Shown here piece after piece: positions 4,137 to 7,993 of a DNA stretch of 64,000 nucleotides (the first letter of the stretch is position 1; each line of letters opens with the position of its first letter). Both the position numbers and the translations under genes were made by a program. The stretch comes from Streptomyces sp. NBC_01233. Lineage in GTDB: Bacteria > Actinomycetota > Actinomycetes > Streptomycetales > Streptomycetaceae. Below the pieces are notes generated by a model. The model made no database searches. It was not told the origin of the DNA and saw only the letters and a list, made by a program, of their open reading frames with translations. The stretch lies in the NCBI RefSeq assembly GCF_035989305.1, contig NZ_CP108514.1, positions 1,913,501 through 1,977,500 of the forward strand, given 5' to 3'.

Positions 4137-4769
4137 TCAGCGGGCGCGGTTCAGGGACTGGAGGGCGGCTCGCAGGAGCTGCGGGACCGGGGCCGAACCG
4201 CCGGCGGCGATCGCGGCTTCGGCCTGCGGCGTCACCGCCGAGACGGCCTCCTCCGCGTCCCGCGAGGCGTAGCCCAGCCCGATCAGCGCGGCGGACAGCT
4301 GCTCCGTCCACGGCGCCGGCCCCGCCGCGACGGCGCGCTGCGCACCCACCAGCCCGCTCGCCCCCAGTGGTGCGCCCAGCTTGCCCTTGAGCTCCAGCAG
4401 CAGCTTCTGCGCGCCCTTCTTGCCGATGCCCGGCACCGCCGTCAGCGCCTTCTCGTCCCCCGTGGAGACGGCCAGCCGGAGCGCGTCGGGGCTGTGCACG
4501 CCGAGCATCGCCTGCGCCAGCCTCGGCCCGACCCCGCTCGCGGTCTGCAGGAGCTCGAAGACCTGGCGTTCGTCGTCGTCGGCGAATCCGTACAGGGTGA
4601 GCGAGTCCTCCCGTACGACCAGGGAGGTGGCCAGCCGGGCCTGTTCCCCCGTCCGCAGGCCGGCGATGGTGTTCGGCGTGCACTGCACGGCCATCCCCAC
4701 TCCCCCGACCTCGATCACGGCGAGGGTGGGGGCGAGTGCGGCGACGGGGCCGCTGACGAAGGCGATCAT
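4137..4769 (-). CDS. ruvA: Holliday junction branch migration protein RuvA
   Basis: Tetrameric protein that recognises the four-way junction and loads RuvB. The 210 residues begin [12 protein letters not shown], the OB-fold domain I. The paired helix-hairpin-helix segments follow ([14 protein letters not shown] and [13 protein letters not shown], about residues 70-125), then domain III at the C-terminus ([15 protein letters not shown]), which binds RuvB. The ATG start overlaps the ruvC stop by 4 bases (ATGA), so the two are coupled. Confidence 0.97.
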
Positions 4770-5302
4770 CGGGTACGGCCTTTCGAGCCAGAGGCGTGCA
4801 GGGCGACCGCCTGCTGGAGGCGGTTCTGGGCGGGGGCCCGCCAGATGTGGCAGATGGCGAGGGCGAGTGCGTCGGCGGCGTCCGCCGGTTTGGGCGGTGC
4901 GGCCAGCCGCAGGAGCCGGGTGACCATCGCCCCGACCTGGGCCTTGTCGGCGCGGCCGGTGCCGGTGACGGCGGCCTTGACCTCGCTGGGGGTGTGCAGG
5001 GCGACCGGTATCCCGCGGCGGGCGGCGCACAGCATCGCGACGGCGCTCGCCTGGGCGGTGCCCATCACGGTGCTGACGTTGTGCTGGCTGAACACCCGTT
5101 CCACGGCGACGACTTCGGGCTGGTGCGTATCGAGCCATTCCTCGATCCCCTGCTCGATGGCGACGAGGCGGTGGCCCAACTCCGCGTCCGCGGGGGTGCG
5201 TACGACCCCCACCCCGAGCATGGTCAGGGGGCGGCCGGCGACACCCTCGACGACGCCGACACCGCATCGCGTCAGCCCCGGGTCCACACCGAGTACGCGC
5301 AC
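4766..5302 (-). CDS. ruvC: Holliday junction endonuclease RuvC
   Basis: Resolvase that cuts Holliday junctions. The first catalytic Asp lies in [12 protein letters not shown] at the N-terminus. The second acidic residue is in [14 protein letters not shown] and the last pair in [12 protein letters not shown], matching the RuvC DEDD set. I start the gene at the GTG giving VRVLGVDPG, with a GAGGGGGG ribosome site 8 bases upstream; the frame is open further upstream but that extension is not conserved-looking. The protein is 178 residues. In Streptomyces this gene normally follows yebC; here an IS110 element has been inserted upstream. Confidence 0.95.
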
Positions 5303-5354
5303 CTTCGCCCCCCCTCGTCCACTCGTCCGTCCGTGTCGGTGCAGGTTATCGGGC

Positions 5355-5375
5355 ACCACTGACAGTCATAGTGGT
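5355..5375. promoter_or_regulatory. Palindrome upstream of ruvC
   Basis: ACCACT and AGTGGT flank an inner palindrome TGACAGTCA, 53 bases upstream of the ruvC GTG. It could be an operator or the 5' end of a leader hairpin. The 206 bases between ruvC and the IS110 element (5303-5508) otherwise hold no gene. I found no actinobacterial LexA-type box here. Confidence 0.3.
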
Positions 5376-5539
5376 ACACGGGTCCCCGGTGGTCGTGACC
5401 CAATCACTGACTGACGTCCTGCTGGACTGTCCTTGCCTTGATCTGTCCGACCGCCGGGGCCCGGTTCCCCAGGGCTCCGGCCGGGCGGAGCATGACCTCA
5501 TAGGAGTCAGCCGTTCACCTGCGGTTGACGCCTCGCGAG

Positions 5540-5731
5540 CGTGAAAATCGGTACGGGGGCTGTCCGCCGACGCCGCTTGATGTTTGGGCTGTGAGCCCGC
5601 ATAGGAGTCTGGTGAGGGAGCCGTCCGAGGGGCCGCACACTGTCGTCTCGAGCACGCCGTTCAGCTTCTCTGTCTCCCCTCAGGCTTCCCGGGCAGCCCC
5701 CGCCCGCACCTTGCGCAAGGGGAGGAAGACG
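5540..5731 (+). ncRNA. Candidate IS110 bridge RNA region (5' UTR of transposase)
   Basis: In IS621 a structured RNA from this position guides recombination through internal loops that pair with target and donor DNA. Here a hairpin GGGCT-GTG-AGCCC (5586-5598) is flanked by TTGATG (5577-5582), the reverse complement of the right host flank (7178-7183), and by CATAGGAGTC (5600-5609), identical to the left host flank (5499-5508). Further on, CCGTTCAGC (5657-5665) equals the right-end junction (7170-7178). A hairpin at 5709-5720 sits just before the ribosome site. RNA ends and fold are inferred. Confidence 0.42.
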
Positions 5732-7093
5732 ATGGAGGAGTCCAGGGAGGACCACGACGACGGAAGTGTTGCCCGGGTCGCGGCGATCGACATCGCCAAG
5801 GCGTCCGGGATGGTGTGTCTGCGCGTCCCGCACGACACCATTGAAGGCCGGCGCGTCCAGCAGGTCTGGACGGTCGCGTCCACCACGAACGCGATCCTCG
5901 AGCTCGGCGACCGGCTGGTCTGCCAGGGTGTCCAGCGGGTGGTGATGGAGGCGACGGGCTCGTACTGGCGGCCCTTCTTCTACCTCTTGGAGGCCCGTGG
6001 CCTGGAATGTTGGCTGGTCAACGCCCGCGATGTGAAGAACGTCCCGGGCCGGCCGAAGACCGACAAGCTGGACGCGGTCTGGCTGGCCAAGCTCGCCGAA
6101 CGCGGCATGGTCCGCGCTTCGTTCGTACCGCCCAAGCCGGTCCGGCAGCTACGGGACCTCACCCGCACCCGCACGGTCTTCATCCAGGAACGCACCCGGC
6201 ACAAGCACCGGGTGGACAAGGCCCTGCAGGACGCGCAGATCAAGCTGTCCGACGTTGTCTCGGACCTCTTCGGCCTCTCCGGCCGGGCCATGCTCGACGC
6301 CCTGGCCGCCGGTGAACGCAACCCCCGAGCTCTGGCGGATCTCGCCAAGGGGAGCCTGGTGAAGAAGAAGCCGGCCCTGGCCGAGGCACTCACCGGGCAG
6401 TTCGAAGAACATCACGGCCGCCTGCTGGGAGTGTTGCTGGGCACCATCGACCACCTCACCGCGCAGGTCCGGGAACTCGACCGGCTGATCGCCGACCTCA
6501 TGGAACAGACCAGGGCCCCGCACGACGGCACCGGAACCGGACCGCCCCGCACAGACGACACCAGCACGTCGTCAGCCCGTGACGCTGTGACCGCGCGGGA
6601 ACTGGCCGAGCGTCTGGACGCGGTCCCCGGCATCGGACCGGCCACCGCCCAGATCATCCTCGCCGAGATCGGCTTGGACATGAGCCGCTTCCCCACCCCC
6701 GAGCACCTGGTCTCCTGGGCGAAGCTGTGCCCCCGCACGATCCAGTCCGGAGCGAAGAACACCACCGGCCCAGCCGGCAAAGGCAACCCCTGGCTCAAGG
6801 GCGCCCTCGGCGAGGCCGCCAACGCCGCCGCCCGCACCGACACCTTCCTCGGCGCCCGCTACCGCAGGATCGTCAAACGCCGCGGCCACGCCAAAGCCCT
6901 CGTCGCCGTCGCCCGCTCGATACTCGTCATCACCTGGCACCTGATCAACGACCCCGACGCCCGCTACCAGGAACTCGGCGCCGACTGGCACCAGCGACAT
7001 CTCAACCCCGCCCGCAAGACCCGCGACCTCGTCCGCCAGCTCCAGGCCCTCGGCCACCAGGTCACCCTCGCCGCCCCCACTACTGCGGCCTGA
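5732..7093 (+). CDS. IS110-family DEDD transposase
   Basis: 453-residue recombinase with a RuvC-like N-terminal domain and a serine-containing C-terminal Tnp domain. The acidic tetrad is visible as AAIDIAKASG (D), VVMEATGSYW (E) and KTDKLDAVWLA (D, D). A coiled-coil-like middle follows. The C-terminal domain has LDAVPGIGPATAQII and then IQSGAKNTTG, whose Ser is the expected catalytic residue. I use the ATG at 5732 because GGGGAGG lies just upstream; the open frame extends to 5525, but that stretch is the non-coding RNA candidate. The gene appears intact, so the element may be active. Confidence 0.93.
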   Translation: MEESREDHDDGSVARVAAIDIAKASGMVCLRVPHDTIEGRRVQQVWTVASTTNAILELGDRLVCQGVQRVVMEATGSYWRPFFYLLEARGLECWLVNARDVKNVPGRPKTDKLDAVWLAKLAERGMVRASFVPPKPVRQLRDLTRTRTVFIQERTRHKHRVDKALQDAQIKLSDVVSDLFGLSGRAMLDALAAGERNPRALADLAKGSLVKKKPALAEALTGQFEEHHGRLLGVLLGTIDHLTAQVRELDRLIADLMEQTRAPHDGTGTGPPRTDDTSTSSARDAVTARELAERLDAVPGIGPATAQIILAEIGLDMSRFPTPEHLVSWAKLCPRTIQSGAKNTTGPAGKGNPWLKGALGEAANAAARTDTFLGARYRRIVKRRGHAKALVAVARSILVITWHLINDPDARYQELGADWHQRHLNPARKTRDLVRQLQALGHQVTLAAPTTAA

Positions 7094-7184
7094 CCGCACT
7101 CCTCGTTCCCGACGTCCGTCCCGCTCCGCGGAACGGACGCTGCCGCCTGCCCGGCTGAGGTTCGATTTTCCGTTCAGCATCAAA

Positions 7185-7225
7185 GCAGCGGGCCGACGGG
7201 GGGTGTGTCCCCGTCGGCCCGCTGC
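7185..7225 (-). terminator. Hairpin terminator after yebC
   Basis: Perfect 17-bp inverted repeat (7185-7201 with 7209-7225) and a 7-base loop, 16 bases past the yebC stop. It implies that yebC transcription stops here. The IS110 right end lies immediately outside it. Confidence 0.8.
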
Positions 7226-7240
7226 TGCACAGTCTGCCGG

Positions 7241-7993
7241 TCAGGCGTCGACCTTCTCCATGACCTCGTCCGAGACGTCGAAGTTGGCGAAGACGTTCTG
7301 CACGTCGTCGCTGTCCTCCAGCGCGTCGATCAGCTTGAAGATCTTGCGCGCGCCCTCTTCGTCCAGCTCGACCTGCATGGTCGGAAGGAAGTTGGAGTCG
7401 GCCGAGTCGTAGTCGATGCCCGCCTCCTGGAGAGCGGTACGGACGGCGACCATGTCGGTGGCCTCGCTGATGATCTCGAAGCTCTCGCCGAGGTCGTTGA
7501 CCTCTTCGGCACCGGCCTCGAGCACCGTCTCCAGGACGTCGTCCTCGGAGAGCTCGCCCTTGGGCAGGAGGACGACACCCTTGCGGTTGAACAGGTACGA
7601 GACCGAGCCCGGGTCGGCCATCGAGCCGCCGTTGCGGGTCATGGCGACGCGGACGTCGGAGGCGGCGCGGTTGCGGTTGTCGGTGAGGCACTCGATGAGC
7701 ACCGCGACACCGTTCGGACCGTAGCCCTCGTACATGATCGTCTCGTAGTCGGCGCCACCGGCCTCAAGACCACCGCCGCGCTTGACCGCGGAGTCGATGT
7801 TCTTGTTCGGGACCGAGCTCTTCTTGGCCTTCTGGATGGCGTCGAAGAGCGTCGGGTTGCCGTCGATGTCCGCGCCGCCCATGCGGGCCGCGACCTCGAT
7901 GTTCTTGATCAGCTTCGCGAAGAGCTTGCCGCGCTTGGCGTCAACCACGGCCTTCTTGTGCTTCGTCGTAGCCCATTTAGAGTGGCCGGACAT
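7241..7993 (-). CDS. yebC: YebC/TACO1-family translation regulator
   Basis: 250 residues starting [23 protein letters not shown], the family's hallmark N-terminus. It continues with [20 protein letters not shown] and [19 protein letters not shown], all conserved in YebC/PmpR proteins. Members relieve ribosome stalling at difficult motifs and some also bind DNA. In Streptomyces it normally precedes ruvC; here it is cut off from ruvC by its terminator and by the IS110 element. pdxT lies 57 bp upstream in the same direction. Confidence 0.95.

Follow-up and report, generated by a model that had tools for sequence, protein, structure and literature searches.

A candidate bridge RNA with apparently reversed guide order upstream of an IS110-family transposase gene in Streptomyces

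Introduction

Does the region upstream of an IS110-family transposase gene in Streptomyces sp. NBC_01233 encode a bridge RNA, and do its guides read the two halves of the target in the reverse of the order published for IS621? The question was raised by an initial annotation of the window, the whole stretch of 64,000 nucleotides analysed here, which proposed a likely bridge RNA with a reversed guide layout and added the worry that its own orientation might be wrong. The short motifs on which it relied are present in the sequence: TTGATG (5577-5582), the hairpin GGGCT-GTG-AGCCC (5586-5598), AG at 5509-5510 and 7176-7177, and CCGTTCAGC at 5657-5665, which equals 7170-7178. Guide order and RNA position have been reported to be linked, the RNA lying upstream with the bottom-strand match first in IS110 elements and downstream with the top-strand match first in IS1111 elements (PMC11187229). 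We call the element of the window IS-Y and a second one, lying against it, IS-X.

Results

Genomic setting and transposase

The host genome comprises 10.3 Mb in four contigs and holds 11 copies of IS-Y, with a protein identity of 99.8-100%; among the named loci retrieved with the IS-Y transposase, 41 of 45 are from Streptomyces. In the window, IS-Y is flanked by genes that, from their open reading frames, we take to encode a RuvC-like protein (4766-5359, minus strand) and a YebC-type regulator (7241-7993, minus strand). Directly 3' of the yebC-like gene stands a perfect 18-bp inverted repeat (7184-7226), likely a terminator, which the insertion has spared.

5732..7093, + strand: tnpA, IS110-family transposase, 453 aa

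The product of tnpA matches PF01548 (DEDD_Tnp_IS110; 87 bits, cut-off 29), PF02371 (Transposase_20; 67.3 bits, cut-off 21.3) and the IS110 model NF033542 (251.4 bits, cut-off 140). Its residues D20, E73, D111, D114 and S339 correspond to D11, E60, D102, D105 and S241 of IS621, numbered as in PMC11208158 (the chain numbering of PDB 8wt6 is two higher); the E, D, D and S were placed by alignment to 8wt6 and the first D by motif only, the match to the IS621 and ISCro4 PDB chains covering only a stretch towards the C terminus and, weakly, one towards the N terminus.

Ends, core and insertion site

The ends of IS-Y were placed with the help of its left neighbour, and the features of the two junctions are as follows.

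5357..5363, + strand: host left half-site of IS-X, CACTGAC
5364..5506, + strand: remnant left end of IS-X with its target loop, the direct left neighbour of IS-Y
5405-5411, + strand: IS-X remnant left guide, CACTGAC
5436-5444, + strand: IS-X remnant right guide, CCTTGAT-CT
5499-5506, + strand: IS-X remnant donor-loop guide, CATAGG-AG
5505..5506, + strand: left copy of the IS-Y core AG (CT on the minus strand), as also found at IS-X right ends
5507..7177, + strand: IS-Y including a single core copy, from TC... on the left to ...CCGTTC-AG on the right
5507..5508, + strand: nucleotides 1-2 (TC) of the IS-Y left end, copied by target-loop nucleotides 5608-5609
7170..7177, + strand: IS-Y right end CCGTTC with the right core AG
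7178..7185, + strand: right target half in the host, CATCAAAG

Among the 11 copies of the genome, the left flank reads ATAGGAGTC in ten and CATTGGAGTC in the exception (L010). The right flank starts with C in all 11 and with CWTCA in nine; the variants CATCAA, CTTCAA, CTTCAG, CCCATG and CAAGGA amount to tolerance on the right side. A stretch of about 150 bp, present in two versions, is common to seven of the 11 left flanks and is the left end of IS-X. At IS-X right ends without IS-Y, ...AGGAG runs straight into CATCA: CATCAA or CATCAT follows the right end in six of eight fetched regions, with the sequence ...GATAGGAG in L158-L160, ...AATAGGAG in L161 and L165 and ...AACAGGAG in L162, and none was seen in the other two (L163, L164). 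Because IS-X right ends abut CATCAA/CATCAT, we place IS-Y between NATAGG-AG and CATCAA, with TC as its left end and the core at 5505-5506 and 7176-7177. The left AG at 5509-5510, first taken as the core, cannot be so, since close relatives have AG, GA or TG there; the element thus begins at 5507, and its left end had been set 4 nt off. The CT core on the minus strand, as in IS621, is retained with its left copy moved to 5505-5506. Likewise, CATAGGAGTC at 5600-5609 is indeed an exact copy of 5499-5508, but this flank is not host DNA, as had been assumed, 5364-5506 being the left end of IS-X.

From these junctions we infer that the target of IS-Y was NATAGG-AG-CATCAA at an IS-X end, and the empty site of the host would read CACTGAC-AG-CATCAAAG. 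Neither the IS-X right ends nor the ruvC-yebC spacers of relatives support the empty site proposed before, CATAGGAGTC-AG-CATCAAAG. In ten of 14 such spacers the alignment passes through the insertion point, with neither element present and small gaps there; L225, L226, L229 and L235, for example, read CACTGACA at that point. The joined sequence CACTGAC-AG-CATCAAAG had no verbatim match in any fetched relative.

A short inverted match, GAAAATCG/CGATTTTC, was observed at 5543-5550 and 7163-7170, 36 nt past the left core and, counting the core, 7 nt short of the right end; it may be a covarying sub-terminal inverted repeat, because its counterpart in the L012-type clade is GTAAAT/ATTTAC.

Predicted RNA structure

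The upstream region of IS-Y was folded with its relatives, and the following elements are predicted.

5546..5701, + strand: predicted bridge RNA with closing stem, target loop and donor loop; its ends are predicted only
5556-5565/5691-5700, + strand: closing stem
5571..5614, + strand: target-binding loop; closing stem 5571-5574/5611-5614, hairpin inside the loop at 5586-5598

RNAalifold recovered the closing stem, the target-loop stem and a donor-loop hairpin from a 24-sequence alignment; of the 23 pairs, 8 have both sides changed at some point in the alignment. To this result we added the hairpin of the target loop and the donor stems, giving a structure of 37 pairs, drawn partly from the window sequence, in which 87.5% of cells are paired and 16 pairs are changed on both sides (shuffle mean 10.3; 1/500). 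Its covariation score was 0.307, against 0.187 in shuffles (0/500) and at most 0.128 in slid versions. Further pair types were in no excess over shuffles (46 vs 45.7), and the fit of helices 3-5 was poorer (77, 70 and 80% paired; the target-loop hairpin 5586-5598, 77%). Single-sequence folds were no better than shuffles (z 0.94 and 0.00), and in Rfam, with E values of up to 5 admitted, no family came close to its gathering score. The covarying structure, together with the guides described below, supports the likely bridge RNA.

Guides and flanks

Three candidate guides can be read in the two loops.

5576..5584, + strand: 5' guide for the target, CTTGATG-TT; complement of the right target on the top strand and, by A-U and G.U, of the core
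5600..5609, + strand: 3' target guide CATAGG-AG followed by handshake-like TC; identical to the left target, pairing with the bottom strand
5657..5665, + strand: 3' donor guide CCGTTC-AG with handshake-like C, same sequence as the IS-Y right end

Rows for the guide tests came from the host genome, the named loci, a genus sample (392 genomes, each contributing no more than four scored candidates) and four multi-copy genomes; 109 were placed, window included, and 96 kept. The 13 dropped rows were the window copy itself (L004), four repeats of loci already present (L016-L019, the same as L012-L015) and eight with unalignable ends or guides (L012, L035, L036, L042, L045, L048, L052, L064); the duplicates L017-L019 agreed with the guide/flank rule. 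Loops were read from alignment columns in 93 rows and by motifs written after viewing the sequences in 16, and right ends by motif. Each distinct arm was represented by the first row that had it, and the permutations ignore the relatedness of loci.

In the 3' arm of the target loop, the five nucleotides ahead of the core agree with the left flank at 5/5 positions in 81 of the 96 rows, at 4/5 in 13 and at 3/5 in two. Over 18 distinct arms (ATAGG, ACAAG, GTGAA, AGAAG, GCGAC, AGGTC, GACAC, CGTCT, GGGTC, CATTG and GGGTT among them), 82 of 90 nucleotides equal the flank (permuted mean 27.7; 0/20,000), and the core AG is found in 95/96 left flanks and 92/96 arms. The donor-loop 3' arm equals the right end at 5/5 positions in 77 and at 4/5 in 14 of 91 rows, or in 63 of 65 nucleotides over 13 distinct pairs (mean 33.0; 0/20,000). 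Complementarity of the 5' arm to the right flank, scored with three core offsets allowed alike for real and permuted pairs, reached 116 over 28 distinct arms (82.5 under permutation; 0/5,000), and 20 random draws of the representatives gave the same result (0/1,000 each). Core-adjacent Watson-Crick runs of at least four between this arm and the right flank occur in 28 of 85 rows, with 26/56 outside and 2/29 inside a multi-copy GGTCAG clade (genomes G290, G057 and G370). Of the 29 loci fetched for that clade, 28 have CAGGTCAG as their left flank and the remaining one is a tandem junction; their right flanks show no conservation. L039, L043, L076 and L077 also match poorly on the right side. From these counts, the strong determinant appears to be the left half-site, with the 3' arm as its reader, and the right one the weaker, the GGTCAG clade apparently making no use of the right. 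The matches first noted are thus not due to chance, since the 11 copies of the genome repeat the flank pattern and the agreement over 96 loci beats permutation; that loop segments should follow the flanks at other loci holds plainly for the left flank and with more latitude for the right.

In G290 (L071, L166, L190), tandem copies have the right-end/left-end junction TTTTCCGGTCAGCCC, as expected of a circle inserted beside a copy. Right flanks GATCGAGTCATG are common to different species (L037, L042, L044) and fit the 5' arm complement poorly; right and left flank together look like a hairpin there (ACTCGAT...ATCGAGT).

A scan of upstream columns against the flanks in 27 non-redundant rows of the main clade ranked highest 5604, 5605, 5602, 5603 and 5601, against left-flank positions 2, 1, 4, 3 and 5 (z 8.7 to 4.9). 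In the same rows the right-flank complement was not outstanding (5582 against nucleotide 1 was second, z 3.4), and no diagonal was seen for a donor-loop 5' arm over all upstream columns. In IS621, the bases directly 3' of the 3' arms are described as pairing with the partner DNA after strand exchange (PMC11208158). Similarly placed bases were found in IS-Y: the two after the core in the target-loop 3' arm both equal nucleotides 1-2 of the left end in 81 of 96 rows, and one does in 15 (15/18 distinct arms match, mean 4.4; 0/20,000), with 5609 against nucleotide 2 ranking first among left-end identities in the scan and 5608 against nucleotide 1 eighth (z 4.0). The donor-loop base after the core equals the first right-flank nucleotide in 61 of 91 rows and in 52/62 outside the GGTCAG clade (19.3/28 distinct, mean 9.0; 0/10,000), and 5665 ranks first among right-flank identities (z 3.9); the second base showed no significant agreement with right-flank nucleotide 2 (3,250/10,000 permutations). 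As judged from this comparison, both handshake-like nucleotides of the target loop and the first of the donor loop fit what a mirror-image IS621 would predict.

Guide order in IS-Y and IS-X

With tnpA, RNA and flanks all read on one strand, the mirror layout gave, in 30 non-redundant rows, scores of 140 of 150 (54.0 expected) and 111.5 (76.5 expected), with 0 and 0 of 5,000 permutations as good; the IS621 layout gave 72 (66.6 expected; 575/5,000) and 48.5 (51.5 expected; 3,770/5,000), near chance. The reversed layout is therefore borne out. IS-X, read in the same way, is different: in 26 loci (L143, L145 and L149 were not readable and are left out of the count), the segment 5' of the hairpin equals the left flank in 8/8 bases at 20 and in 7/8 at six. 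The permutation test for this guide was modest (45/48 vs 38.6; 59/5,000) because the six guide versions are alike. By eye, and with some rows disagreeing at the core, the segment across the hairpin is similar to the AG-CATCAA complement apart from one skipped base, and the donor loop has the right-end copy GATAGG-AG first and the left-end complement second. IS-X thus appears, from its sequence, to have the published IS621 order under the same strand conventions, which argues that the choice of strand is not the cause of the reversal in IS-Y and removes the worry over orientation.

IS-X/IS-Y hybrids

The left end of IS-X matches 45 of the 392 genus-sample genomes, the host included, at E < 1e-10, and 84 at E up to 0.001, where many matches are short and weak; the IS-X transposase, as found in L159, is 404 aa long and contains the two Pfam domains of IS110. 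This left end lies directly against IS-Y in seven of the 11 copies of the host genome, in L021 and L046 and in eight contigs of Streptomyces sp. SM11; three of the host-genome copies, L001, L002 and L008, have the composite at identical codons of a gene that we presume, by eye, to encode an IS256-type transposase. IS-Y is also found near an IS-X-like transposase gene (33-64% identical stretches) in L069, L056/L070 and L023. The predicted guides of the window fit IS-X right-end/host junctions, NATAGG-AG-CWTCA, and such junctions are, by this match, putative targets of IS-Y among other sites.

In the hybrids of the host genome, the two versions of IS-X are 74-77% alike and IS-Y differs by at most 2 of 1,673 bases, which speaks for repeated insertion of IS-Y followed by loss of the IS-X interior. 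By a route in keeping with the sequences, IS-Y might enter the copy of GATAGG-AG in the donor-loop DNA of IS-X, and its right end might then recombine with the IS-X right-end junction and so remove the rest of IS-X, a deletion that would leave the hybrid. In SM11, a hybrid of 1,771 bases is identical in eight contigs: four left flanks (L026, L027, L030, L040) end in CGACTGAC, where the other four contigs start, and four right flanks (L025, L028, L029, L031) start with CATC, two of them alike for about 18 bases. Being identical in eight contigs with these flanks on the left and right, the hybrid may move as one unit, although the contigs do not join left to right and the draft assembly may blur copies.

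Relatives on plasmids

Eleven of the loci listed in plasmid records were fetched and represent nine elements, L237-L239 being one, annotated in its record as ISArsp3 of Arthrobacter. Five of the nine have a copy of at least 8 bases of the left flank in the 3' arm (ISArsp3, and L240, L242, L243 and L245, of which three are from Rhodococcus and one from Cupriavidus); an 8-base repeat of this kind was not found in L241, L244, L246 and L247, with L246 holding a 7-base copy, CTG-AG-CC. The donor arm copies the right end in L237, L240, L241, L242, L245 (4/5), L246 and L247, and we located no right end in L243 and L244. ISArsp3 resembles IS-Y in its transposase (45.5% identical, same Pfam domains), in a 3' arm that copies the left flank (AAGTG-AG-TT) and in a donor arm that copies the right end (ATGTC-AG); it differs in its target, and the match to its right half-site is weak by eye. 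No paper naming this element was found in the literature searched.

Discussion

We observe for IS-Y the covariation of guides with flanks, covariation in the RNA structure, natural retargeting and a contrast with IS-X. The reading that we prefer, with a probability of about 0.86, is that its upstream region encodes a two-loop bridge RNA and that the mechanism of IS621 operates there in mirror image relative to tnpA. The RNA would be made, bound and used. The AG core forms part of the arms; on the strand copied by the 5' arm it reads CT, the same as the core of IS621. Since the core is CT in the frame of the RNA, the RNA-protein machine looks IS621-type, with the cassette of RNA and tnpA turned round relative to the donor junction, which would be the simplest account; the bottom strand relative to tnpA, and not the top, would then be exchanged first.

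The likeness to IS621 and ISCro4 of the IS110 group (PDB 8wt6, 9t56) extends to a DEDD+S recombinase and a two-loop RNA, predicted in IS-Y, upstream of tnpA, and, for IS621, to a core within the pairing, CT in the RNA frame, and handshake-like bases after the 3' arms (PMC11208158, PMC11208160). The differences are that left half-sites are read by 3' arms in IS-Y and by 5' arms in IS621, and that the transposase has 453 aa against about 330 aa. An ordinary layout of the IS621 type, with the reversal coming from a wrong strand, wrong ends or a misplaced RNA, would agree with the RNAs of IS621 and ISEc21, described with the bottom-strand match first (PMC11208160; PMC11187229), and the left end first noted really was 4 nt off; with corrected ends, however, the IS621 order falls near chance and the mirror order far above it, and IS-X gives the usual order on the one strand used throughout, which makes this explanation very improbable. 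More improbable still is that the guide/flank matches are leftovers of shared ancestry of element ends and flanks. One flank can resemble guide DNA by descent, because the donor-loop DNA and the right ends of IS-X (GATAGGAG and its variants) are nearly identical, but 18 distinct arms track their own flanks, mutually unrelated host sites included.

IS-Y could also be an IS1111-type element with its RNA brought upstream by rearrangement, its order being simply that of IS1111. Like ISEc11, ISPa11 and ISKpn4 of that group, it has the top-strand complement 5' and the bottom-strand complement 3', and exceptions in RNA placement such as ISMtsp17 are reported (PMC11187229); the short inverted match near its ends may be counted on the same side. 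Unlike those elements, for which an RNA downstream of tnp, sub-terminal inverted repeats usually of 11-13 bp and transposases of 330-350 aa are described (PMC11187229), IS-Y has its guide matches and structure in the upstream region. Its longest exact inverted match, between the first and last 60 nt of the window copy, is 8 bp with 36/7-nt extensions, against about 11-13 bp with 7/3, and its 453 aa fall within the 395-455 aa given for the subgroup with IS110 itself (PMC11187229), in keeping with the NF033542 score. Judging by protein length, model score and inverted match, we regard an IS1111 origin as unlikely. The long upstream non-coding region with a predicted RNA, seen in sequence and structure, is that of the IS110 group, and the bottom-strand match 5' of the top-strand match, the published order of that group, is what IS-Y lacks. 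Two loops with covarying guides, seen for both target arms and one donor arm, are as in bridge-RNA systems generally. ISEc21 shares the upstream RNA and a target inside other insertion sequences and differs in having precisely that order (PMC11187229).

The IS-Y clade therefore seems, from its sequences, to join an upstream RNA with the reverse order, a pairing unlike those reported for IS110 and IS1111 elements. Beyond PMC11187229, PMC11208160 and PMC11208158, no report on this combination in IS110 was recognised in a search of texts that did not take in preprints, figures or supplements (e.g., the six elements including ISAar29 in Extended Data Fig. 10 of PMC11208160). Because the clade separates the two traits, guide order is not dictated by RNA position, and the clade offers a direct test of what sets insertion orientation and the first-exchanged strand, as well as recombinases whose 3' guide arm is long. 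IS-Y would moreover be one putative RNA-guided element living on the ends of another. A wider proposal, which we put forward tentatively and hold to be possible rather than probable, is that of a third bridge-RNA architecture, with the RNA upstream, the cassette inverted relative to the donor junction and the bottom strand first, present in Streptomyces, Rhodococcus, Arthrobacter relatives and Cupriavidus; it would aim at canonical IS110 ends and so make hybrids of an IS-X left end and IS-Y, which, as SM11 suggests, might be moved as a unit to IS-X targets through the borrowed IS-X target loop.

The chromosome of the host has 32 matches to PF01548, and two more multi-copy IS110 groups were seen in this genome, of 405 aa (L193-L196) and 429 aa (L198-L203), which we set aside, their ends and guides being too ambiguous. 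In the 429-aa group, GCCTAATGG stands at the left junction and its reverse complement, CCATTAGGC, within the upstream region.
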